Shown here in pieces: positions 40,480 to 62,883 of a stretch of 64,000 bases of DNA. Both the position numbers and the translations under genes were made by a program. The notes under the pieces are model-generated. The model searched no databases. It saw nothing but the letters and a program-made list of their open reading frames with translations, and was not told the origin of the DNA. The stretch comes from Bryum argenteum (lineage: Eukaryota; Streptophyta; Bryopsida; Bryales; Bryaceae). Each line of letters starts with the position of its first letter. Within the stretch, counting starts at the first letter, position 1. The DNA lies in contig CM073323.1 of NCBI GenBank assembly GCA_037043015.1, positions 6,820,001 through 6,884,000 of the forward strand, in the 5' to 3' direction.

Positions 40480-41295
40480 TTAACCCCTAAGTGGTGCGGG
40501 CTCATCAAAGATTAACTTGGGCTTCTTCGCCGGCGGGGCATCACTCAGCGGCGTTGCAGTCTCATCAAGAATCAACTTAGGCTTCTTCGCCGGCGGGGCA
40601 TCACTCAGCGGCGTTGCGGTCTCATCAAGAATCAACTTAGGCTTCTTCGCCGGCGGGGCATCGCTCAACGGCGTTGCGGTCTCATCAAGAATCAACTTAG
40701 GCTTCTTCGCCGGCGGGGCATCACTCAGCGGCGTTGCGGTCTCATCAAGAATCAACTTAGGCTTCTTCGCCGGCGGGGCATCGCTCAGCGGCGTTGCGGT
40801 CTCATCAAGAATCAACTTAGGCTTCTTCGCCGGCGGGGCATCACTCAGCGGCCTTGCGGTCTCATCAAGAATCAACTTAGGCTTCTTCGTTGGCGGGGCA
40901 TCACTCAGCGGCGTTGCGGTCTCATCAAGAATCAACTTAGGCTTCTTCGCCGGCGGGGCATCGCTCAGCGGCCTTGCGGTTTCATCAAGAATCAACTTAG
41001 GCTTCTTCGCCGGCGGGGCATCACTCAGCGGCCTTGCGGTCTCATCAAGAATCAACTTAGGCTTCTTCGGCGGACGTTCATCGTTCAACGGTGCTGCACG
41101 CTCCTCTTTCTTGAGCCAAGGTGGTGCGGGCCCATCAAATATCAACTTGGGCTTCTTCGGCGGCCGGTCGTCGTTCAACGGTCGTGACGTAACCTTTTGT
41201 TGAACTGCATTATCGGCTAAGTTACGAGCAAGTGTTCCAACTACAAAAAGTAAGAGCCACAAGCTGCACACAACCGACACAATTCTCATCGCCAT
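40480..41295 (-). CDS. Secreted protein of tandem 20-residue KKPKL repeats
   Basis: A single-exon ORF of 271 residues. A clear signal peptide (MAMRIVSVVCSLWLLLFVVG) is followed by a linker. Then come eleven KKPKL motifs: two divergent N-terminal units (RPPKKPKLIFD, RPPKKPKLILD) and nine near-identical 20-residue units of the form PLSDAPPAKKPKLILDETAT or RPLSDA variants. The DNA repeats every 60 bp with almost no silent change, which implies recent expansion. Each unit offers a basic cluster between acidic/hydrophobic segments, as in multi-copy peptide precursors, but this could also be a structural wall protein. The basic core also resembles a nuclear localisation signal, which conflicts with secretion. 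No family is recognised. MLECRIKGTG upstream is open, but the start at MAM gives a normal signal peptide. Confidence 0.72.
   Translation of the reverse strand: MAMRIVSVVCSLWLLLFVVGTLARNLADNAVQQKVTSRPLNDDRPPKKPKLIFDGPAPPWLKKEERAAPLNDERPPKKPKLILDETARPLSDAPPAKKPKLILDETARPLSDAPPAKKPKLILDETATPLSDAPPTKKPKLILDETARPLSDAPPAKKPKLILDETATPLSDAPPAKKPKLILDETATPLSDAPPAKKPKLILDETATPLSDAPPAKKPKLILDETATPLSDAPPAKKPKLILDETATPLSDAPPAKKPKLIFDEPAPLRG
40505..41090 (-). repeat. Minisatellite inside the coding region, 60-bp unit, about 10 copies
   Basis: Units in phase with the codons differ mainly at a few positions (GCCGGCGGGG or GTTGGCGGGG; GCGTTGCGGT or GCCTTGCGGT). The antisense strand is also open across the array, a by-product of the repeat. 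Confidence 0.95.
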
Positions 41296-43211
41296 GCCTG
41301 TGCCTTTTATCCTACACTCAAGCACACATGGCGATGTTAATCTTCCAAGCTATGGTAGCATTGCCATCATAAAAATGTAACTTATCTATCTCATAGATAC
41401 TTTCAAGGTGCTTTTAGAGAATTTTGCACCGGTTCACTAATTGCGAGTATTGAACAAACCTAAAGCAAATGTCTAAGAGTATCTTATCGAAAGCTTGTGT
41501 GTGAGTAAGGGTTCGATAGCTCATGAACTATAAGGATCTAAATGAAGCCTACTACTACTTCACAAGATTGTAGAAACAAAACAATATAATAATGGAAAAG
41601 CTTCGAATGAATCTGCACACAAGTATTGTTGAGACTTGCACACTCCAGGTAATAAGACTCAATAAACTCAAGGCTTAAAAGACAAGAAGAACTCACAGTC
41701 ATAAGAAGGAAGCTCGAACAAGAATCAACGTAGGTACCAAGAGAAGGAGAAGTTGTGTTTGTAAAATGAGGCTCAGCATTGGGTTTATATAGCTAGTTGG
41801 AGAAGGAAACGTGGGGTGGAAGGTGAAGCAATTCGTGAGAGGACCAAAGGAGGCCAAGTGTCCTCTCGTGTAATTGGTCCTTTCAAGATTTTTTAAGGAG
41901 AGAACCAATCACATGAGAGGTCATATTTACAATATTATTGGCCATGTGAAGCGTCCATATTACCCTTGGGACAATGTGATCACCCCCTAAAAACGTCCCT
42001 TTGATCTTCCAATGTATCTCTATTGCATTTTATTTTTTTATTTTTTTCATTTATTGATTCATTTTATTTTGTTTCATAGTTTTGTTTAGTTTGACTTGTC
42101 GTGAACAATATGCTACATAGTGACTTTTTACATTTGGATCATCTTCAACAAAACAAGTTAAATTTGAGGAACTAACTATATGTAGAGAAGCTTTACATGT
42201 AAATGGAGTGAATTGGTACTTTTTGCCACACAAATAATTAGACTCCATATGAAAAAATTAGACTCCATATAAAAATGATTCCCTTGGGAAGGAAGGGTTG
42301 GTTTTATTTTCCACCGTACTAGCTAATTAGCTATTGATCGCCAAAAGAGAGTCTTTACATGCAAAAAACACCTAATAAAGAAACTAACAAACACCTAAGC
42401 GTCGTTTCTGCAACACCCTGGTGTTGCAACCATGTTCAGCGAACGTTACCAGCCAAATTCGGGACGTCGACAACCAACACAATCATCTGCAAGGACTGTG
42501 ACTTTAACCAGAGAGTAGTAGTTGCGATGCCACATTAAGTTGAAAAGTAATGCACACATGTAGAATTTTGTCTCTACCAAACATCAACATGAAGGTTGAA
42601 TGCGGAAATCCAGAAATTGACTGCGTGAAAGCAGAAGCACGTTCGCAGAGCTACAATCTGTTAGATCTAGAACGATAGAACCTGCTTAGAGCTAACAAGT
42701 CACATTTCTTATTCTCCAAATTGCTATGAACACACTAAACTAGGGAACGCTAAACTCGGTTGCTAATTACCGTCACCAGTGTCAGAATAGCTAACTCTCA
42801 AAAGTGCAATTCCTCTAAAAAATATATTACGGCAAATAACACAAGCGGCAGCTCAGAGGCCAAGTTAACTTACTACACAGCGTGGGCTAGGAACAAAAGG
42901 TTAAGCTGATGACCAGCACAGCGCAGCACAGCCCAAGTGGGACAGGCCATGCTCTTATTTCAGGTCATAGCTAGTCCTGAGCACCACAGAGCCCGAAAGC
43001 TCAAGCTGCAATTCAAGGGGCAACAAATCTTCAAGATGGAAAATCCAGATTTTCAGGGCCATGCAAACCTTGAAAGTGTAAATACGCTACATGATTCTGG
43101 CGAGAAAACACAGTGGTTCTCACAGCCAGGCCATTGAAGAGATGGCCGTCTCTGTGATCCACGTTCATGCAGAGCACTTAAGCCAGAGAGATTGATTGAC
43201 TTGTACGCAAC
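41296..43211. other. Spacer and likely 3'UTR of the ArfGAP gene
   Basis: AT-rich to 42900. 42900-43211 has transcript-like composition and abuts the ArfGAP stop codon. No other gene is seen. Confidence 0.5.
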
Positions 43212-49785: not shown

Positions 49786-49798
49786 ACCTCCAACTAAG
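49786..49798 (+). repeat. Candidate target-site duplication of the LINE (3' side)
   Basis: AACCTCCAACTAA directly abuts the LINE's terminal TATC repeat and recurs exactly at 62884-62896. Confidence 0.6.
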
Positions 49799-50027
49799 AT
49801 AGATAGATAAAAAAATCCGGTCCTTTTTCAGGGCCGGCGTGATTACAGTGTCTGTTCGTCAAGCCAGTGTCCTAATGCCCACCGGACAAGAGGACTCTGG
49901 TACAAGACTACTCACCCCTTTCGGGATTAGACACTATAGTAGCAAGAAGAAACAGAAGTAACCAGGAAATAGTCAATATTATCTTTCTAAGGTTTGTGTA
50001 AGGTTGTATTTTGTATTTTATCGTGGG

Positions 50028-50275
50028 TATGGTCGCCAAGCCCTGATTCCTGGGTGATTGGTAGGGATGTTTGAGTTACAAATAAGCGGTCCGGGTTCGA
50101 TACTCGGGGGATCCGTTCGAGCGTTTAGTGTGATATACATGGCTTGGTGCTGCTAGTGTGTTATACATAGGCAGGAAATTTGTACCAATCAATCGGCCCT
50201 GTCCCATCTACCTGAGACAAGTGTGACTATTCTTGTGGGAAGTGGTTTGCGCCATTTCTCACGCCCTCCTCCTTT
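50028..50275 (+). mobile_element. tRNA-related SINE-like sequence in the LINE 3'UTR (antisense)
   Basis: An A-box-like TGGGTGATTGG and a near-consensus B box GGTTCGATACT sit about 45 bp apart. They are followed by a SINE-like body with the motif CATCTACCTGAGACAAGTG. It is either a SINE inserted in the LINE tail or a tRNA-derived part of the LINE 3'UTR. A functional tRNA is excluded because no acceptor stem forms. Confidence 0.4.
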
Positions 50276-50280
50276 TATTG

Positions 50281-50784
50281 TTACATTATTGTGGGGATTG
50301 TTTGGTTATTATCAATTTTCCTTTTGTGTAAAATAATTGATCCGGCGTGTTGAATGGCGATGGTATTTATTTCATGGAATGTGCGTTTTATGCATGTTTC
50401 TGATAAGTTAAATATTTCTGCAAGAAGTTTCATTGATGGTTTGTGTGTTGTGCCTCTAGCACCGGCTGTGATGACTATGAGGGGGTCTACTTTCCATCCT
50501 AAGTTACGGAGTTTATCAAGAAGTGGTTGATATTTGTCGGTTTTGTTATTAATTGTTTCTTGAGAGAATCTATCGTTACAGTATGTGAATTCTATAAATT
50601 GAAGTGTGAGGTTGTCTGTTGGGTGTCGTGGTGGGTCGTTTTTGTGTGATAGACCTTTAACGCATAGTATATCCGGTTTGAATCTAGCGTTGCAATGACA
50701 TTTTTGTTGTGTACATTCGCATTGTAATAGCCATGTAGGGACCGTATTTTCTTGGGGGTTGTTATTAAATGTGCCTGCGTTCAT
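50281..50784 (-). pseudogene. LINE main frame, C-terminal PD-(D/E)xK-like endonuclease domain
   Basis: 167 residues in the same frame as the RNase H segment, separated from it only by a TGA at 50854-50856. A CxCx4CxC cluster (QCECTQQKCHC) precedes KPDI (residues 37-40), QFIEFTYCND (E65) and lysines 81 and 84 (NNKTDKY). This order of Asp, Glu and Lys is that of restriction-like endonucleases of R2- and Dualen-type LINEs. It would nick target DNA. The reading through the stop is inference; the motif order is visible. Confidence 0.7.
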
Positions 50785-50853
50785 GAGGATATAACAACGT
50801 GATTTTTGAGATGAGAGAATTAATTTTCTTAGTTCCCATACGGCTTTGTTATG

Positions 50854-52797
50854 TCACTTAATTCTAAGGGCGTGTATGTGGTGGTGACCACATTTGAGTA
50901 ATGCTTGTAACCATGTGTCGGCGTCCATGGAGTTACATATAGAGCAAGTTATTGATGGGAATCGTTCTCTACCAAAGAATAGTTGTTTCCTTCCGTTCCC
51001 CATGTATTGGCCGGTGCGTAGCTTTAGAATAATTGTTTTTTGGGAGTCCGTAATTATGGGATTTAGCCAGTATGCATTTGATAATTCATTGTCAATATCC
51101 GGGTTTGTTGTCCATTTGTTGATGTTGGGGAATTGGTCAGCGAGTATTATAAGGTTGTTGTTGTAGTCTTGTTTGTCTATGTATGTTTGAAGGCATTTGA
51201 CCGGGCCCTTGTCTGGGCGAGTTAGGGGTCCTGGCCATTTATATTTCTGGTAGTAGAATGGTGTGGTGTGTGCGAATTCGTGGGGTTTTGTGGCTATCGT
51301 ATATCGTTTGGTGGCGCCGGCTTTCGCAAGTTTGTCTGCTTCCTCGTTGCCAGTGATGTTAATATGCGCTTTAACCTTGTGGAATATAGTAGGTTGAGTA
51401 CGGTTTTGTAATATCTCAACCATTTCTGTTAGGATGGTTTTGTCAGGATGGTTGTGTTGTGTGGATGGGTGTAATATGTGAGTATTTAGATTATATAGGC
51501 AGTTTATGCAATCCGTGAAGATATAGGCCGGTTCATTTGGGTATTTGGTGTTGATTAAGTGTAGGGTTGTATGAATAGCCATTAATTCGGCACGAAAGCA
51601 TGTTTGAAGGCCAGGAAGTCTTTCTGATATTTGCATGTCAGGTTTTGTGGGATTGTAGATGCCGTATCTAGCTTTTTCTTTTTTCCAATGTCCATCCTCG
51701 GCATCTTTAGGTGGTATGAAGGAGCCGTCCGTATAGTAGCTGTATTGCGGTTGGAATTTTAGAGTAGGGTTGATTTTGAACTTTGGTAGAGGGGGTATAC
51801 ATGTGGGTTCGAAGTTTGAGTTTGTATATGAGGGGTATAACATTTTATTCCATCTTTTATTTTTATTGACGATAGTGTTGTATGGGGTTGGTGGAGCTTG
51901 TTGTATATAGTAGTGCGGGATTACCATGACCTCAATTGCATTTTTAATGTTGTTAATTTGCTCTAATGTACCAACGTGATTGTTTTGATGGTGTATGCAC
52001 ATGATGGATATTGCAAGTGGTTCGGTTGTTGGTTTGTATTTTTGTGGGGGTGCTGGGATTTCGTATGTGATGGAGTCTGCGGTGAAATGAGTTATTATAT
52101 GTGTATCCGGGAAAGGTCCAATATACGGGGTTGGGTTTTGGTACCAGTTTGGGTCGGGGGTGACTATTATGGTGATTGTATTTGGGTCGTGTTTGGCCGC
52201 TAATCTCGCCCAGTGGATGGCTTGTTGGGTTGTTTCCGGATTATGGGTATGCGCATACCCTATGCCCGTCCATTTATATTCAAAAGCGTTGCCACGAGAT
52301 CCAAATATTTTGTCTCGGGAGAAAAGAGAGAAATATTTTGTTATTTTGGTGGAACATGTAATTGGTGATGAAAAGTATGAGTGATTGATTTGGAGGTTAG
52401 TGGTGATATGATCGAGAATGTTTGTTGGAAGGGTGTGGTGGGGTGTTAGTTTCGGGTTTTTTTTGGAGGATTGAGCTTTATATCTTTGGTACAACCATAT
52501 TATTTCTGTTTCGAATGTTTGTGTGTATGGCATTAGCCCATGTGAGTTGTTTGAGTATTTATTAAATTGTTGCCATAGCCACTGTAATCTATTTATAGGT
52601 ATGGTGGTGAGGTATCGGCCATTGTCTTCGTATAGGTGAGCTGATTCGTTATTTATTTGTATGGTGGTTTTGTTAGTAATAATGTCTCTTTTTAGATTGC
52701 ATTCTGCAAAGTGTATTTGCGTAAGTGGGGTAATTGATGGTGGTGGTATGAACCTGTTGTCCTTGAGTTGTGCTTGTATAAAATGAGTGTTGATCAA
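50854..52797 (-). pseudogene. LINE main frame, connector and RNase H domain
   Basis: 647 residues. The C-terminal half has a complete RNase H catalytic set: D357 (YYTDGSF), E404 (FRAELMAI), D429 (IFTDC) and D488 (GNEEADKLAKAG), with the handle-like HKVKAH. A zinc-knuckle-like CSIC and KCGHHH pair follows. The N-terminal half contains a conserved-looking block (residues 155-250: RDKIFGSRGNAFEYKWTG, AIHWARLAAKHD, TPDPNWYQNP), of a type known from other LINE proteins, whose function I cannot assign. It shares its frame with the reverse transcriptase segment, interrupted by two TAA codons between 52797 and 52941. Confidence 0.9.
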
Positions 52798-52938
52798 GTT
52801 TCGATAGTGATCATGTTGCGATTTAGTGTAGAAATCCTTAAGTAGTTGAATATTGTGTGAAATGACTGTTGGATAATTTAGGGGAAATAGGTCTCTCTGT
52901 TAGAGCCATTTATGGTATGTGGTGTTATTGTAGTGCCA

Positions 52939-55082
52939 TTAGCATAGGTATGTGTTGTGGGTATTAGGTATTTTGTATTTGTCTTTTGTAGTTACTGTTT
53001 TGTGATTTAATATTGTAGTTATGGGATATTCAAGAGGGTTGTTTTTAATGTTAGGTGGTGGGCTTATTTGGTGAGTATCTTGGTGGGTAATAGGTTGTGG
53101 TCGGGTGTTTGAATGTCTTGGGAGTAAGTCAAAATTGTCTGAGATGTATATTGGTTTGAGTGTGCGGGCAGGTGGGTGTTGGGTGCAGGTGTTAGGGCAG
53201 TTCGGGTTGCATTTAGTTTGGCAAAATAGTTTTTCAGCTATTTCTAGCGCACTTTTATCAAGTTTAGTTGGTGTTTTATAGTATGTTGCAAAGTCGGTTG
53301 GTGACATGAGGTACGTACCGTTTGGGAGAGAGATGTGTTTGATTTTGTAGATATTGTGTATTAGAAGCTTGTGTAAGAGCTTGATTGATAGTTCCGGGTT
53401 GAGGTGAGGAAGTTCGGTGTTGGCTTGTTCTAACCACTCTCGTTCCAGTTCGGTTTTGTGTAATTGGAAGTCACCATTGGTACTTTTTAGATGTATACCT
53501 CCATCTTGTTTGAGAAGAAATAGTGTTCGTGATATGGGAGAGTTTATACAGTTGGAGGCTTTTAATCTGGGGATGTTTTCGGCGCCACTGTGTTTGGAAG
53601 TTATGTGTTGAATAAGGCCTTTGTAAATATTGCCTAGTCTTCCTTGATCATTAAGTGCATTTCTAAGTTGTTCGCCGATACATCTTAGATATGCGTTTTT
53701 TAGTGAGAATGCTTGAAGACCAAAGAGTTTGTGGGGAAGTTGGGTAATCACGTTCGCTGTGCATTTTGGAAGGCCACAAATTGTTTTTTGGATTCCTATA
53801 ATTTTTTTGTCAAGTTTTTTGATGGTTGGAAGTGAGAATGGGACTGCATAGAAGCTATATGCGATCCCTGCTCTGATGACTGTATCAACCATGTTGATTT
53901 TTTGTTTGATTGTTGCGGGGCATTTTGCGAGTTGTTTACATTGGTCGATGAGTTTGTTTGTCGCGATGTGTGTTTGGATTTTCCATTTTAGAGAGGGTAC
54001 CATGTGGATACCAAGGTAGATATAAGGTTCGTTTTGGTGAAGGATAGGAATTGGTTGGTTTCTATAGGTGATGTGGTGTTGCTCTATTTCTTCTTTGAAA
54101 TTATTGGGCTTTATTTTGGATTTATTCGGACAGCCTGTAATAGCACATTTTTGCGCGCTGAGGTCCATACCTGCCCATTCACAGAATTTATCTATTTTGT
54201 ATATTTGAGTTTGTATGGATTGGAGGGTGTTTGCAAGTCCTGCTAAATCGTCCGCGTATGCAGCAGCTGTAATGTTTATTTTTGATGTACCAAATGTATA
54301 GCCATTATTCCCTCTTTGTAGCCATCTTAGTAGTGGTTCTAGAAATATGAGAAATAGGTAGGGGCTTAATGTGTCGCCTTGAATTGTTCCTCTTTGTATT
54401 GGAATTGGTTCTGTCTTGCCAAAATATTCGCCTGTGAATATTGTGGAAGAGTTTGCGTATATGTTACCAATTAGCGTAACTACGTCTAAAGGGTAACCAA
54501 GGTCTTTCATTACTGCGAGTAGTCGAGCATGGTCTAGGGAACCGAATGCGTTTTTAAATCTATATATAGTATATAGATGTCTTGATTTGTGAGTTTTGCG
54601 TCCTCTAAGGCTGCAGTGATGAGTTGTATTTGTCTGGCTGTGCTTCTTTCTGCTCGGAAGCCTTCTTGGCTGTCATGTAATATTTGGTGATGTTCGCCGT
54701 ATGTTGAAAGTATGATTGTGAGAGTACTCGTGAAGAGTTTGTAGATTGTATTGGCTAGCGCTATAGGCCTGTGGTTTGGTAGTACTGCTGGATTGCCCAT
54801 TTTGTATAGTAGTATGATTAGGCTTGATTTCCATGATGCTGGTATTTGACGTTGTTTGTAGCAGTGGTGGAAAAACATGGATAGTAATTTATGAAAGTTG
54901 TCGGGCATGTATTTTAGAATGGAGTTAGGGATTCTATCCGGTCCTGGTGCTTTATTATTGGATAATTGTTTTAAACATTGGCCATATATTTCATCGTTGA
55001 AGTATTTATGTAAGGGGGTTTGTGGATTACCTCTTTTGTCTATTACAAAGCCGTCTAAATCGTGCCATGGGTATTGTCTCAC
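52939..55082 (-). pseudogene. LINE main frame, reverse transcriptase domain, frameshifted
   Basis: The first part (55082-54534) carries the fingers: NNKAPGPDRIPNSILK, PASWKSSLIILLYKMG, HRPIALANTIYKLF, QEGFRAERSTARQ and YIDLK. A one-base loss in the A run at 54551-54555 breaks the frame. The second part (54510-52939) resumes with RGTIQGDTLSPYLF, the catalytic AAYADDLAG and YLGIHM in the thumb. It copies element RNA at a nicked target site. The frame upstream of 55082 is open and joins the endonuclease segment. The order and motifs are those of non-LTR reverse transcriptases. Confidence 0.95.
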
Positions 55083-55370
55083 GCTACATGTGCATAGTGT
55101 TGGGTGTTGGGGTTGGTGATAACATGTTGGGACTGTAGGCCTATTAGTTTGTGATTGTTGTGTGTGTATTTCAATTGCGATGTCTTTCGGGTTGGTTAAG
55201 AGGTTGTTATATCTATCTATGATGCAGTCAAGTGGTGGGGTATCTTGATATTTGAAGACTTTTTTGTTTATTGTTTTTGGACTTTTGTCGTATAACTGCC
55301 TATATTTCGTGGTGGCTTTTTTAATGCATGTTTGGGTGAATTTCGTAGTGATTTTTTGTGCTTGTTTTTT

Positions 55371-56747
55371 TTATGATTTTGCTATTTCTGCTAGGGTTTG
55401 GATCCATTCTTGTGGATTGTTGGTTTGTGGTGGAGGTGGTGGAATGTCTGTGTGTGTATGTTTGCTTAGTTCTTTTATTATGGGGTGTTGCTGCCAATTG
55501 GGGGTGTTTTTTGTACTGTATATAGCCTTGCGAATTAGATGGTATGTGGTTAGGTGTTTTTTCCATTGCTTTTGGAGTTTTCTTGGTAGAAATCCTCCTT
55601 GTTCAGATGTGCGTGGTGTTAGTGTAGGCAAGGGTGGTGCGCTGCAAGTGTTTTCAATTAACTTGGATGTTTCTTGAATTAAGTGGTCTAGTTTTTCGCA
55701 TGCCGTTTGCCATTGTGTAGTTGTTAGTTGTGTGTTTGAGAGAAGAGAGGTGAGGTCATTGATTTTGTTTGAGTTGTCTTCATAAAATATTGTTTTAAAC
55801 TTATCAAGGTTTTCTTGTGGAATAGGATTTAAAATTCTCATCGGTTTAGATGTTGGTTCTTGTGGGGGTCTTGCGAGCAGTGTGTTTGGAGGTATTTGAA
55901 GAGTAATTGGAGAATGATCTGAGTTGAGGTTATGTTCTGTAATAGTTAGCAATGTGTATGAATTGTTATTGGGGGTATTTATGAAAAATCCATCTATTAG
56001 GCTGGTTTCGCTATAATTTAGTCCTCCTTGTCTCGAATATACAGTGTTTGTTGGTATATATGTTAGTTGTAGGGAATCTGTGAATGCTCGGAAATCCCTG
56101 TCTTCTAATTGCGGTGGAGTTGTGTCTAATTCGTGTCGACAACCTATGAGAGCTATGTCTCTATTAAAATCCCCACATAATATCTGGATGTGGTTAGGGT
56201 GTGCTGTAATCTGTTGTGTTATTTGTTGTTGTATTGTTTCTATGTAAGGGGTGTCTTCTGGATGTGACGGCATGTACATGTGTATAAGTAACCAAGGTTG
56301 TAGGGGTTCGTTTTTTATTTTTATGATTTGTAAATATGGTGAAATTGCGGCGGGGGTTGGGATTTTGGTAACATTACCTGGGTATGTGTATTTGTTGTTT
56401 ATAAATAACAAGAGGCCTCCTCTTGTAGGTGTATATTCCATTCGTTGTTGCATGCATCGTGTTAGTGTGTGTGTATTGTTGAAGATCATTTTGTGATTAG
56501 GGAATAAATTTTGAAGATATTTGGTAGATTTTGTGGCAGTTAATCTAGTTTCTTGTATTGCAATGATTGCCGGGCTTGTAGGGGTGTTAGTGATTAGTTC
56601 ATGTAAATTTGGGAGGGCGGTGTTGAGTGATGAGGCATTCCAAGTGACTATATGTGTTTTATGATTCGTGGTGATTGGTGTTGTATTTTGTGGGGGGGGG
56701 CATATCTGGTGCTGGAGGTGGATGAGAATATTCCGGAAGGGGTTCAT
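55371..56747 (-). pseudogene. LINE main frame, AP-type endonuclease domain
   Basis: 458 residues with the exonuclease-endonuclease-phosphatase motifs in order: VTWNASSLN (35-42), IQETRL (64-69), GDFNRD (192-197), SLIDGF (249-254) and SDHSP (276-280). The domain makes the first-strand nick in target-primed reverse transcription. The segment ends at a TAA (55371), after which the same frame runs on into the reverse transcriptase. At its 5' end it overlaps the 2A segment in another frame across a run of nine C (minus strand, 56692-56700). Confidence 0.93.
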
Positions 56748-57546
56748 TGATTTTTAGGGCTTCTGCAAGTAGGTTATCGGGTAAAAATGGGAATACGTTT
56801 TTTAATTGTTCTGGGTTGGGTGGTATGTTGTTTTGTTGAATGAATTCATATAGTTGTTTGTGTATGGTGTTGGGGGGGTTTATTAGGTTAGAATTATTGT
56901 TTATGAATTGTATGTATGGGTGTGTGTTGTTGAGATGTCTTTCTGGCGGATTTTGAAGTGTGGCCATTTCATTAAGTAATAAAGTGGTCCAATTTGGATT
57001 AGTGGGATGTTCGAGGATGCGGTTGCATGTTTCTGGTGATGGGTTTATTGTTGTGATAAGAGCGTATAATATGCGTGGTGCTGGGTGATGAGAGTTTTCC
57101 TGAACGTAGTTTGTGAGATGTGGGTATTTTATTTGTGCTTCTGGATGTTTTGAGTGAGTATTTATGAGACATGGCGCAAATTGTGCTGATAAGTGTTGGT
57201 ATTCAGGGTGTAGTCGAATTGTGCATGGTATGAAGTAGTTTTTGCATCTTCGTTTACAGACGGATGGGTGTGTACTGAGTACATTTGGCATCGGCCCTGG
57301 ATTGGTTTCGACATCTCCGCATTTTGGTAAGTGATATTTGTCTTTGTATGTGTAGTGGTATGTTTTAGTAGTGTGGGTTGATGTTTTTGAAATTTTTATG
57401 AGTGTGATGTTTTGTGTGTGTATTTTTTGGTTTATTGGTTCATAGGTGAGCTCCGGTGGTCGGATTTGTTTGTTTGTGTGTCCATTGTATTGAGTGGGTT
57501 TTAATGGTTTTAGTTTTTTTGAGTGGCATGTTTGTGGGACTTTCAT
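56659..57546 (-). pseudogene. LINE main frame, N-terminal leader with 2A motif
   Basis: 295 residues, rich in Lys, His, Thr, Pro and Asn. Residues 1-84 form a basic leader ending in KCGDVETNPG, and the 2A motif places the skipping point between G84 and P85. The downstream part has cysteines (SVCKRRCKNYF) and helical stretches but no recognised fold. The frame ends at 56659, and the endonuclease continues in another frame at the C run. With eight C instead of nine the two would be one ORF, so the break is either a homopolymer change or a slippage site. Confidence 0.85.
57292..57315 (-). other. 2A ribosome-skipping motif (DVETNPGP)
   Basis: Codons for D-V-E-T-N-P-G-P, preceded by Cys-Gly, satisfy the D-x-E-x-N-P-G-P 2A consensus. 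In known 2A sequences the ribosome fails to form the final Gly-Pro bond and continues, giving two proteins from one ORF. The motif here is seen directly; activity is inferred. Confidence 0.85.
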
Positions 57547-57980
57547 GGGGTTTTTTGGCTTTTTGTAAGGTTTAATTAGTTTTTGAGGCCCAAAAAGTTT
57601 CTTTATATATGATAGTGTGGATGTGATGTTATGTACGTGTGGTTTGTATGGGTTTAGTAAATTTAGTTTATAGGCGAGGCCGGGAGGCCGAGCTTGATTT
57701 TTTGTAAAGTTGTGTGTATGGTTTGTTTGTTTAGTTTTGGATATCTTGGAGAATTTTTTGTGGTGCAGATATTGTCTTGTGATGGGATATTTCGGATTTT
57801 TTGTGTTTATTTTGGCTAACTTCTGTGGCCGCGTAAGTTGGGTTTTTTGTGTTTTCCGCTTGGCTTCGGTATTGTTTATTTTTGGTATAATTGGGGTTAT
57901 ATAGTTTCTACTTTTATTGGTTGTATTAAAAAATACACTTGGTTTTGAGCTATGTGTCGTTGGGCCTTTGGTGTGCCAAC

Positions 57981-59623
57981 TTAGTTTTCCGTCTCCATTG
58001 AGTCATTTTCCTCCCTTTGGCCTAGGCATAATTTTTTGTTGGACTCAATGGTTTGCATTGTCATGGCAAACATGTCGTGCATAGCCTTGAGTTGTTGTTG
58101 AATGCTTTGTGATGCTTTTAGGTGTACCTTCTCCACATACCTCATTGCTTCCCCAACGATCTCCTTTTTCATCACCCCCATTTCCTCTCTCATAACTTCC
58201 ATGGTTTTGGTACTCCCTTTCTCCACAGCTTCATTCACAATTTGTTGTAGATCCTCCTTCGTGTATGATTTTGTTGCCTTGTTCTCCATGGCTTGTACCG
58301 TGCTTGCAAGGGCGTTGTTAATGTCGTTAAACCCAAGTCTTTTTAGATCATCTTCATTAGGTTTGATGGTTCCTTCCAAGCTCTTAGGGTGGGGGAAAAA
58401 CTCAACATATTTGTTTAATATCTTGTGAGTTTTTTTGACGAATTTTTTGTAGACTGCTATGTTTAGACATTCTACATTGCAAATTCCGACATGTTTACCT
58501 TTTTCAAGGTGAAAATACACATCTACTACATTGTCTTCACCCATGAGTTTTCTAATTTCAATTTCTATTGTTTCCTTTGTCTTGGTTTTGTTAAGGTTTT
58601 TGACAATTAACACAAGCACATTTCTTTTTGCTTTTTCGTCATCCGTTAGCTTCACTTTGGATGGAATTGTTCCTTCCAAGATTTCATTCTCAAATCTAAC
58701 TTTTTCTTTTTTCAAAAGTTTAACTTGAGTTGGTGAAGTGGTGACTATCCAAGCAAAGTCCGCCTCTAGATTCTTTTGGACATTTGTGATCTCAAAATCT
58801 AGCCCTCTTTTAAAGCCATCTTCAACAAAGGCCTCCATCATGGTGGCCCAATGTTTGTTGGAGATGTTTGGGCTATTGATTTTGACGGATAGTAAGCTGC
58901 TAATAGCCAAAGCGTCATAGGATTTGCAGACTTTCCCTCTCAAAAGTTTGCCATCTATATTGAGGATAAATGGCTTTTTTCCTTTGAGAAGGTCTTTAGC
59001 ATCGGTTTTGGGGTTTTTTAGGTGGATTTTTAGTGTCCCACACCAAATATTTGATTGGTGGTAGCAAAGGTAGGCAATTGGTTCACCCATGAGAGTGCCC
59101 AATTCAATGCCCATGTTTGCTAATCTAGACTCTACTTGTACCCCTATCTCTTCCTTTGTGGTAGAACGAGTGCTAATTTCAAAATAGATGGCAACTTGGT
59201 AGTCTAGTGCATATCCATATTCATCTATTTCCACCTCACTTGGGACTTGGGTGAAGTTGAAGTGTTGCCCCTCTTTCCCATCAGATCTATTAGAAGGCCA
59301 TTCCTCTTGTAGAACATATGGGAAAGAAGGGATGCTCTTCTCATACTCCTCTCTCTCCACTTTCCCTAGACCTTTTTTGATGAGTTCTTCTTTTTACTGA
59401 TTTTCTCTATCATTGCATCATTATAGTGATCCAAGAAATTGTGAGCTTGGAAGCCTAGCCAAAATCTCCTCTCATTGATTTTTCCCTTAGATTTCTTTGA
59501 CGTGACAACCAAATTATTCTCATCAATTTGCCTTTTACTCGTCAATCCTTCCGACATAACAAGATCTTGGGTTAGATTTTTAACAACGCCCTTGGGGGTT
59601 GAGCTTGTGCTTTGTTGGGCCAT
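57981..59623 (-). pseudogene. ORF1-like protein of a non-LTR element, one frameshift
   Basis: A start at 59623 (MAQQSTSSTPKGVV) opens about 80 residues with FWLGFQAHNFLDHYNDAMIE. A single-base loss in an A run near 59390 shifts the frame, and 459 further residues follow to a TAG at 57981. The body is lysine-rich with an RNA-binding-like middle (LVLIVKNLNKTKTKE, GKHVGICNVECL) and a C-terminal helical or coiled-coil part (YTKEDLQQIVNEAVEKG, IQQQLKAMHDMFAM). The length, basic charge and coiled coil resemble ORF1 or gag-like chaperones. It is on the same strand as the LINE main frame, 434 bp upstream, and probably belongs to it. It could instead be a remnant of an element into which the LINE inserted. 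Confidence 0.6.
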
Positions 59624-61351
59624 CCTATTACATACAAAAGTTTTTGTAATGTTAATATTGCTTTTTTCCATTTTTCTCCAATTAATCCCTTCTTCTCCTT
59701 CTCCCCCCATCATGGTATGGGGGGCTTTGTAAAGTATGAAGATAGGGGGGAGAGTTTTCTTTTTAACATGCATTTTGAGGGTACATGTGCTCTCTTCTTT
59801 ACTGCTACTATTATTATTCTTAATATTTATACTTTTGAGAAAATTCCAAGAAATCATATTTTTAAGAAGGGGGGCATTCATTGTGGCACATACAATGATA
59901 CAACTATTAACTTTATTACTATCATATATTACTTTATTATGAATATACATATTACTTATGCACAAAGTATCATACAAACATGTAATCTTATGATTAGTAT
60001 ATTGCACATATATTGTAACAGAAGTAATTCTTTGGTTCATTAAGACAGTCATATCAAGTGTAGTAAACGTGGGTTGGAGAGTCTTACCTGGAGAGATGTT
60101 ACGTTTATTCACTCTCTGTCCCCCTACCAGCCAACTTTTTACTCGAGGTAGGAGCTTTGTTGGGAGTGGTTGCGGCAGTCTTGCTATAGACAGTTGTGCA
60201 CTCACACTTTCATTCTCTGCAATCGGTCTTGATTTTGGGGGTTGCGATGTCGATTGTGTTCGGGGTTGATTCGACGGGTATGATGCAAGGCGTCTTCTTG
60301 ATAATGTGTGCTGATGTGAATTCCTCGAAGCAGATCCGTTGCTCCTTCTTGGCAGCGCGTGTTCACGGACGGTGCACCGGGGCGCTGCGCAGACGCACTT
60401 ACGGCTCCAGAAGAGCAGCTTCAGTGCAACAGCATCCTCCGCCCTAGTTTCGGCGACAACACCCTCTCCTTTTGCACCGACAATAACCTCTCTTTCCGCA
60501 CCAACAGCGCTAACCTCTCTTTCCGCACCAACAACGCTAACGTAGATCTTTGGCGCAACGGCGTTCTCCTTTAGCACGGCAATGCTTTTGCAGCGCTTGT
60601 AGCTCTGCGAAATTTGACACTCACACTGCACCACCAAGTAACACCAGCAGCCACAGTATCGGAGAAATCTATGCGAGTAGCAACAATTAACTCGGTATAT
60701 ACAAAACGAGCGCGATTTGCAATTAGGTTTCTTATGGATTAGGTCAGGGGTAGAATTGCAAAAGATTTGGAAAAGCACACTTACTTGATTGGTGACACAT
60801 TCGCATGCTCCTGTGATCCTTTTCTGTAGCGTCACTTCTAGTAGAAGTCTCAAGCACACTACATGTATCTTGCAATAATATTTACTTGTCTGATAAGCTA
60901 AGAAAGTTGAAACACGAATACTAAGCCTTCTGAGGTTTCTCGCTGTTGCTACTGCTGGCCTTGCACACAGATTACAAGATACTTTTGAGAGAGTACTAGG
61001 GAGAGCAGGGAAAGCTACCAGTTCGGAGGCATACAAACAGCGTTCGTGATTGCAATAAGAAGTGAGTACCGTCTCACAAGCAGATCCTCTTATATGGTGG
61101 CATTTCTTCTTCTTTTTTGCCGATGAATGACGTTCATTGCAAAACCGATGAACTGCTACGTAGCTGTTCGTGAGGTTAGGGTTTAGGATACTTACCTGCA
61201 ATAGTAACGTTATGGTGGATCTGCATCTCCACCGTTCGTCAGTCTTCGAACATGACGTGTTGGCATCCCAATCTGCCTGAGCAGGTTGTAGTCGTTGGTG
61301 GAGGATTGGTTCTTCAGCAACAACCTTCTTGTAGCAGTCCGTTGAGGTCAC
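59624..61351 (-). other. LINE upstream region with a long frame lacking domains
   Basis: One minus-strand frame stays open for 1.7 kb up to the ORF1 start, but residue use is not protein-like for most of its length and no domain is visible. It is more likely leader DNA. Confidence 0.4.
60487..60540 (-). repeat. Tandem repeat, 27-bp unit, 2 copies
   Basis: CCTCTCTTTCCGCACCAACA-type units at 60487 and 60514, differing at one base. Confidence 0.85.
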
Positions 61352-61418
61352 GTTTGCGGGTTTGCTGATGATCTTGCTTCAAAGCAGGTGCACGGTATGA
61401 AACTGCGGCTACAGCTTC

Positions 61419-61750
61419 CAAGGCCGAATTGGGCCTCGTTCGTAGACAAATGGCGAGCATATTGTACTGCAATCTCTTCCCAGGTACTCACATCCGGCAG
61501 ACTGAACGCCATAGACATGTCAAATCGGCTAAGGAGTGCAGGATCCAAGTCCTGCTTGCGATCTGTAGCAGCGATCACCACAATCTTCTTGTCCTGCTCA
61601 AATCCACCCATCTGCCGCAACAGCACTGCCAACATCCTTCGTGTCGCTCCATGCAGTTCGTTGTCACGAGTTGAGTTAAGCTCATCCACCAAGACGATAG
61701 CGCCTCCTGAGAGCTCATTGCTGGCTGTGAAGATTTTTATATTGTCCGTA
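61419..61750 (-). pseudogene. Captured fragment of a host AAA-ATPase gene
   Basis: About 110 residues match the core of an AAA+ domain. They comprise a degraded Walker B (AIVLVDELN), the second region of homology (IVVIAATDRKQDLDPALLSRFDMS) and the linker HGATRRMLAVLLRQMGGFEQ. Walker A and the C-terminus are missing, and a few residues after Walker B are deleted, so it cannot be functional. An 18-bp direct repeat (GAAACTGCGGCTACAGCT at 61399-61416 and 61768-61785) brackets it. It has no intron inside and runs in the LINE's sense direction, consistent with capture of a transcript or exon. Confidence 0.75.
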
Positions 61751-61822
61751 TTCGTAATCCCATGTGCGAAACTGCGGCTACAGCTGCATGACATGTTGGG
61801 ATGGGCTGTCTCGGTAGTCACG

Positions 61823-62074
61823 TTGTATTGATTGTGATTGCAGGTCGGATGCAGATTCTTGGATGTCACTTCGAGGTTACGCCACTCGACATTATGGTAA
61901 TTCACGTTGTATTGATTGTGATTGCAGGGCGGATGCAGATTCTTGGATGTCACTTCGAGGTTACGCCGCTCGACATTGTGGTAATTCACGTTGTATTGAT
62001 TGTGATTGCAGGGCGGATGCAGATTCTTGGATGTCACTTCGAGGTTACGCCGCTCGACATTGTGGTAATTCTTT
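61823..62074 (-). repeat. Tandem repeat, 84-bp unit, 3 copies
   Basis: Units start at 61823, 61907 and 61991 with TTGTATTGATTGTGATTGCA. Copies two and three are almost identical. As 84 is a multiple of three, the minus frame stays open through the array. The position in the LINE's putative 5' region recalls promoter monomers of some LINEs. Confidence 0.9.
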
Positions 62075-62883
62075 TGGAAATTCTTGCTTCGCATTGTGGA
62101 ATGCGGTTTCGGCATCATCATGTGCATCTCTACTGACATTCTTCTCATGCTGCGGAGGGCTAGCACCGCTTGCTGGGGCGGGATGGGAGCGATCTGGTCC
62201 ATCTTTTGCGACTTTTTGACAAGGCGGGCTGCACCATAGAGTTTAGATGATAGATCTAGTATGTAGCCCTTATTGTTAGAAAAGCACAATGTAGAGTTGC
62301 AATGGATTTTTGATGCTACTACATCAAATAAACATAACAATATAATGTAACAACAAAGGTTTGTGGTATGAGAAAGTAGCCTGGTTGTTGCCGGAGTGTT
62401 GCAAGCTGTTGGACTTCTGCTACCGCGCATATCTTCCCTTTAGTACCTTGTTTCAGGTGCAAGGGAGAGAGAGCTATGATTAGCGTAGGGTCTAGAGGGA
62501 ATGTGGTGACTAGGGGAGCTAGAAATGATCATTGCTTAGTTGTCTGTATGACCCAGCTCATACAGCTACAGATCTGCCAACACCCATTCCAGATCTGCAT
62601 TCTAGATCTAGATCTGAATCTAGATCTGAACTCTCTTGGAATGTTTTTCTTGTTTCTCTAGTGTGAGATTGAGCGTATTTTGTGAAGTCGCATGTTTCTA
62701 AGCAATGTCACCGCAGCCCAGCCTGCAACTCCCCTTCAATCAACACAAACACCTAGTACCCATTGCTAACACAAGGATGTTAGAAAACTAACACCCATCT
62801 CTCTCTCCCTCCTCACCACAAAACGCGGAGCGTTTCAACCTTCCATCCTCCCATCGTGACCGAAGATATCCGTTGAACTCACT
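62075..62883 (-). other. Putative 5' end of the LINE
   Basis: No ORF with support. The sequence just inside the duplication reads AAGTGAGTTCAACGG on the minus strand. 62598-62632 is a short AGATCT-rich tandem stretch. Confidence 0.4.

Follow-up and report, generated by a model that had tools for sequence, protein, structure and literature searches.

A large LINE lineage in the genome of the moss Bryum argenteum very probably carries a working StopGo/2A peptide near the N-terminus of its ORF2, where it would free a changeable leader. The motif itself, its fixed place, its reading frame and the purifying selection on its peptide were all observed, and the predicted skipping of the peptide bond in moss cells is very likely. 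The copy in which the motif was noticed lies in a window of 64,000 nucleotides (positions 6,820,001 to 6,884,000 of contig CM073323.1, assembly GCA_037043015.1), to which the coordinates given below refer.

In this window, sequence reading and the alignment of the family placed the core DVETNPGP at 57315 to 57292 on the minus strand, directly preceded by LPKCG (57316–57330, minus strand), of which the L, the C and the G are conserved positions in an alignment of 130 copies. The original prediction, which had a full 2A consensus ending a basic leader of 84 residues, proved exact to the nucleotide: in translation, the leader runs on the minus strand from its first ATG at 57546 to the G of NPG (57295–57546), so that 84 residues precede the proline, the last base of whose codon is 57292. 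The frame of the 2A stays open for 152 more codons upstream of this ATG, to 58002, just before the stop of ORF1, and the true leader probably exceeds 84 residues. A six-frame scan of the window for NPG preceded by 14 open residues gave one further NPGP, which stands without a 2A-like context. The window copy matches the core rule (D/G/C/N)(V/I)ExNPGP and is of the type called group A below; upstream of the core it keeps only the L at p7, the C at p10 and the G at p11.

The element that surrounds the motif is an ORF1/ORF2 LINE with an APE endonuclease, a reverse transcriptase (RT), a PCIF1-like domain, an RNase H and a CCHC/PD..E tail, all on the minus strand. From alignment to other copies it extends approximately from 49797 to 61346, with a 3′ tail made of a T-run plus ATCTATCTATC. 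The alignment stops at query positions 691–709 in 38 of the 39 other copies among the matches listed, which gives the 3′ end, and the 5′ end is rough because the alignment starts differ, several copies aligning from query position 55 and others from later or from 7. ORF1 was seen as an open stop-to-stop part of 470 codons in its main frame (57984–59393), with no Pfam family above the cut-off in a Pfam profile search; an N-terminal part is possibly encoded farther 5′ in a different frame. The sequence upstream of ORF1 is common to other copies, and a related ORF1 was recognised by eye ahead of ORF2 in L134–L138 too. Next follows an open frame of 447 codons from stop to stop (56662–58002), which holds the leader, the 2A and a post-2A domain that begins with MPNVL (56701–57291); this anchor was located in 130 copies, and the domain matched 0 Pfam families. 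The APE-type endonuclease (55374–56753; Exo_endo_phos, 6.5e-9; Exo_endo_phos_2, 1.5e-8) is in a frame different from that of the 2A, and a run of nine plus-strand G (56692–56700) lies in the overlap of the two. The first part of the RT (54537–55370) was identified by RVT_1 at 3e-5, which alone is below the cut-off, and by tblastn to the RT of the relative L032; the second part, in a different frame (52942–54672), matched RVT_1 at 2.1e-14. Between RT and RNase H (51313–51744; PF00075, 3.8e-12) lies the PCIF1-like domain (52249–52557; PF12237, 5.7e-12; residues 1804–1931 in L032), and the stop-interrupted C-terminal region (50284–51324) was recognised by motif only, from a CxxC..H..C and PD...E pattern. 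Strand asymmetry is strong over this part of the window, with a plus-strand GC skew of +0.32 to +0.51 in 2-kb bins at 50–58 kb; the sense strand of ORF2 is C- and A-rich (window 50001–58000), and the skew ends near the border of ORF1 and ORF2.

Since the 2A frame closes at 56662, the endonuclease occupies a different frame from 56753 on and the RT is interrupted as well, the window copy is dead, and the finding applies to the LINE family and not to this single copy. The main frame that had been proposed to run from the 2A through endonuclease and RT does not hold for the window copy, where the frames differ, and does hold for L032, in which a single stop-free frame of 2554 codons spans leader, 2A, endonuclease, RT and RNase H. 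L032 has the same Pfam domain set as the window copy, including the PCIF1-like domain at 7.1e-12.

The PCIF1 family consists of cap adenosine methyltransferases. When the domain of the LINE was aligned to PCIF1 structures, its residues facing NPPF were not conserved, so that this domain may not be catalytic. By its domains, the element resembles the Dualen/RandI LINEs, which in the excerpted texts of PMC4640811 and PMC3636483 are defined by having both kinds of endonuclease, APE and restriction-like, and also possess RNase H. An APE endonuclease, an RNase H and a C-terminal CCHC/PD-E pattern are likewise found in the moss LINE, whereas its restriction-like endonuclease is known by motif alone, without profile or fold support, and its PCIF1-like domain has no counterpart in the excerpted text of PMC4640811, where PCIF1 has 0 mentions. 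A profile match and a PDB sequence match were sought for the C-terminal region, and a PDB sequence match for ORF1 of one relative, and none was found; predicted models of the C-terminal and the PCIF1-like regions had mean pLDDT values of 32.9 and 35.4, and both were discarded. The idea that the RT is closer to R2 than to L1 was dropped, because the phmmer scores against PDB chains do not decide it: three R2-named chains scored 110–116 bits, L1 chains 70–72 bits, and two chains named "reverse transcriptase-like protein", which we take to be silkworm R2, 64–68 bits. One scan of viral contigs with the RT alignment found no relative.

Other features of the window were recorded in passing. An ORF that adjoins the 5′ end of the LINE (61348–62430, minus strand) contains a stretch that by eye resembles an AAA-ATPase, together with a unit of roughly 30 residues repeated three times in tandem. 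A further ORF (40480–41325, minus strand) consists, behind a signal-like start, of a unit of roughly 20 residues (PLSDAPPAKKPKLILDETA) repeated many times. The LEAFY family (PF01698) had five matches over the cut-off in the genome and was found in 0 of 14 control genomes; one of the five is a strong locus on contig C5, and the other four are weaker SAM-domain matches on C9 (two), C10 and C3. The best PDB match of the LEAFY DNA-binding stretch was 4bhk, presumably LEAFY of the moss Physcomitrium, with 244.8 bits versus 173.5 for the next and agreement at 102 of 107 residues. The LEAFY gene marks the host as a land plant and, more closely, as a moss.

In the whole host genome, the pattern [VIM]ExNPGP was matched 178 times and the reversed pattern once; many of the 178 matches were linked to this LINE, though not each one individually, and one (C3:16435190) has a stop codon in place of x. 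A chance match is ruled out by this excess and by the presence of the motif upstream of endonuclease copies collected blind to it (see below). The copies were gathered in two ways. A tblastn search with a query containing the 2A yielded 137 rows, from which four short second matches, two duplicates and one further row were excluded, and the resulting 130 copies were read from the conserved post-2A anchor. In this downstream-anchored set, whose query held the 2A, [DGCN][VI]ExNPGP was present in 107 copies and the NPGP end in 111, with L030 and L065 scored as misses, the former having DIETNPGP in another frame. Most of the 23 copies that failed the core rule look decayed by one to three residues. 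Upstream of the core, the L at p7 was found in 122, the C at p10 in 117 and the G at p11 in 123 of the 130 copies, and two large groups could be distinguished, the window-like YHYTYKDKYHLPKCGDVETNPGP and FLLLCGDIESNPGP.

The motif-blind set came from a search with the endonuclease of L032, whose 125 rows are the best of 400 candidates, L032-like copies first. The 70 rows used are those on contigs C1–C4 and on C5 below 14.69 Mb, a range chosen because the places of the 2A pattern (100 of the 178) are completely recorded there. An exact [VIM]ExNPGP was found 891–926 nt upstream of the endonuclease in 48 of the 70. The 22 misses comprise 16 copies with a recognisable mutated 2A, eight of them already read (L005, L024, L047, L068, L090, L098, L116, L119) and eight among 13 further copies (L145, L146, L148, L151, L152, L154, L155, L156), one with an exact but displaced motif (1823 nt), and five in which no leader was seen in the 351 nt read (L147, L149, L150, L153, L157). 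An intact or recognisable 2A is present in 65 of the 70 copies, and none of the 70 combines a recognisable leader with the loss of such a 2A. Absence or mutation of the motif in intact family members, the outcome named beforehand as speaking against it, was thus not seen at the level of the family by either count. Changes of the E at p14 recur, to Q in L127 and L155 and to K in L002, L145, L146 and L148, and related copies may share them; these copies could represent weak or dead forms of the 2A that still spread.

Selection was followed by pN/pS, calculated as uncorrected Nei-Gojobori values with the codons aligned from the post-2A anchor. Group A consists of L001–L026 (26 copies) and group B of L074 and up minus six named loci (54 copies); the two were split by locus number, with no tree, and the remaining 50 copies enter only the all-copy values. 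In group A, pN/pS was 1.36 in the distal leader (the part between 45 and about 25 residues ahead of the cut), 0.36 in its nearer part, 0.38 at LxxCG, 0.14 in the core, 0.07 in NPGP and 0.14 in the first 40 residues past the cut, and the corresponding values in group B were 0.70, 0.46, 0.24, 0.03, 0.04 and 0.14. Across all 130 copies, the core had 0.15; the all-copy leader value of 0.92 mixes unrelated leaders and is unfit for use. The octapeptide is under purifying selection and the distal leader is not. First and second positions of the core codons are nearly fixed and third positions variable, with all four bases at the third positions of G9, P3, G2 and P1 and a third-position entropy of up to 1.86 bits at the core neighbour G9 and 1.85 bits at G2 and P1, and the selection therefore acts on the peptide. 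That the conservation instead belongs to the nucleic acid, as an RNA element or a recombination site, would agree with leaders that were apparently swapped between subfamilies near the 2A, but is disfavoured by precisely this pattern of nearly fixed and variable positions and is hardly credible.

The same values bear on the question of whether the leader is translated at all. If it were not, ORF2 would start at the Met right after the proline of the 2A, and the motif would be either a remnant or a piece of a 5′ signal; this would be in line with the Met that follows NPGP in 126 of the 130 copies, and with the window copy, where ORF2 follows ORF1 in a different frame, so that its start calls for an explanation. 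A remnant, however, would not give an octapeptide pN/pS of 0.03–0.14 with free silent change, and the CCN codon of the proline ahead of the ATG places a C at −3, which makes a poor context for starting. Together with the selection on the core, this C disfavours a start directly past the 2A, which was considered quite unlikely. The motif might also be a conserved structural piece of the ORF2 N-terminus that works without skipping, as the residues from +1 to +40 are conserved too (pN/pS of 0.14 in both groups) and several columns there have a lower entropy than the 2A: over the 130 copies, the fixed 2A positions have 0.37–0.61, and past the cut the M has 0.24, the P 0.34 and later H residues 0.19–0.26, so that some residues are at least as conserved and the 2A is not the sole conserved part. 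Yet ahead of the cut it is the residues of the known 2A rule that are conserved, at the end of a segment that can change almost freely in its distal part, and groups A and B share the L at p7, the C at p10, the G at p11 and the core, with little else upstream, which renders a purely structural role very unlikely. A third possibility is that the 2A doubles as a signal, failed skipping leaving an uncleaved ORF2 protein to be relocated by a hydrophobic LFLLL context, as with the 2As of sea urchin NLRs. An N-terminal 2A with dual targeting is described in the excerpted text of PMC4981915, and in group B, CGD is preceded by a short hydrophobic stretch; group A, however, has KYHLPKC at this site, and the 2A would not be N-terminal if translation makes use of the long open frame that precedes it. 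Such a double function is highly improbable.

A StopGo/2A that acts by skipping, the reading preferred here, has precedents outside plants. A study by Odon from 2013 is said to deal with 2A-bearing APE-type LINEs of animals, and in animal LINEs and in L1Tc of Trypanosoma the 2A is placed N-terminally to endonuclease and RT. The moss 2A, in frame in L032, has the same placement; the differences lie in the land plant host, in the tandem 2As and leader exchange described below, and in the combination of APE endonuclease, RNase H, PCIF1-like domain and C-terminal CCHC/PD-E region. The excerpted texts of PMC11512398 and PMC4981915 cite 2As in LINEs of animals and trypanosomes, and the latter also states that 2A peptides work in plant cells. 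For viral StopGo, the expanded rule is given as (D/G/C/N)(V/I)ExNPGP in the excerpted text of PMC12846837, with six upstream motifs and 28% of viral cases left unclassified; the L-rich motifs 2 and 6 close with (A/S/C)G and are associated with D at p12 and S at p15. The moss LINE shares with the viral peptides the core, the G at p11, the D at p12 and T or S at p15, and by eye group B, which ends in LFLLLCGDIESNPGP, fits the L-rich motifs 2 and 6 of these excerpts, whereas KYHLPKC of group A fits none of the six as described there. A further difference is that the present case sits in a plant genome, inside a LINE; in the same excerpts, this 2026 survey reports no good 2A of a plant virus, the six matches being taken as host misclassification (PMC12846837). 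Among the matches listed from open-licence PMC texts, no title or abstract opening mentions a retrotransposon of plants or algae that bears a 2A, and natural use of 2A in plants seems not to be known.

Some copies carry two 2As in tandem. Eight close pairs were found among the 100 listed places, and their spacing is divisible by three in all eight, although several of the pairs are related and therefore stand for fewer than eight independent events. Of six pairs that were read, four (L031, L033, L141, L144) are stop-free between the two 2As and two contain stops (L142, with 15, and L143, with 5). Both 2As are kept in L033, L141 and L144, whereas a decayed upstream 2A is followed by an intact downstream one in L031 and L137 (the downstream 2A of L137 being L054). 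Judged by eye, the leader that stands upstream in L033 belongs to another subfamily (compare L053). This pattern fits an exchange of 5′ ends in which the 2A proximal to ORF2 is the one that matters. A GC-rich repeat unit that encodes ARPPGLAY(K) or a variant of it was also seen within the A/C-rich leaders of the window copy (about 57,690), L031, L033 and L136.

In the proposed course of events, ribosomes that read the open ORF2 frame would make the basic, fast-changing leader and skip the Gly-Pro bond at the end of LxxCGD(V/I)ExNPGP, by which the leader would be released. Synthesis would then resume with Pro-Met-Pro and yield one large protein made of the post-2A domain, APE endonuclease, RT, PCIF1-like domain, RNase H and C-terminal CCHC/PD-E region. 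The leader might be made rarely. The use of the 2A, more weakly inferred than its presence, may be to keep the N-terminus of the ORF2 protein constant under any leader and any mode of ORF2 start, which would let subfamilies swap their 5′ ends without harm to the enzyme. Because a 2A would free whatever precedes it, the element could take the 5′ ends of other subfamilies and still make a clean ORF2 protein. It is a tentative view, given somewhat less than an even chance, that this is a native, lineage-wide land-plant StopGo that marks a module border in a Dualen-like LINE and serves 5′-end turnover and not a fixed protein ratio.

Plant biotechnology uses StopGo with viral peptides, and a plant LINE family with many 2As would offer a native collection of 2A variants selected on plant ribosomes. 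For the LINEs themselves, such a family makes it testable how an element produces its ORF2 protein downstream of ORF1, and for what reason the 5′ ends turn over.
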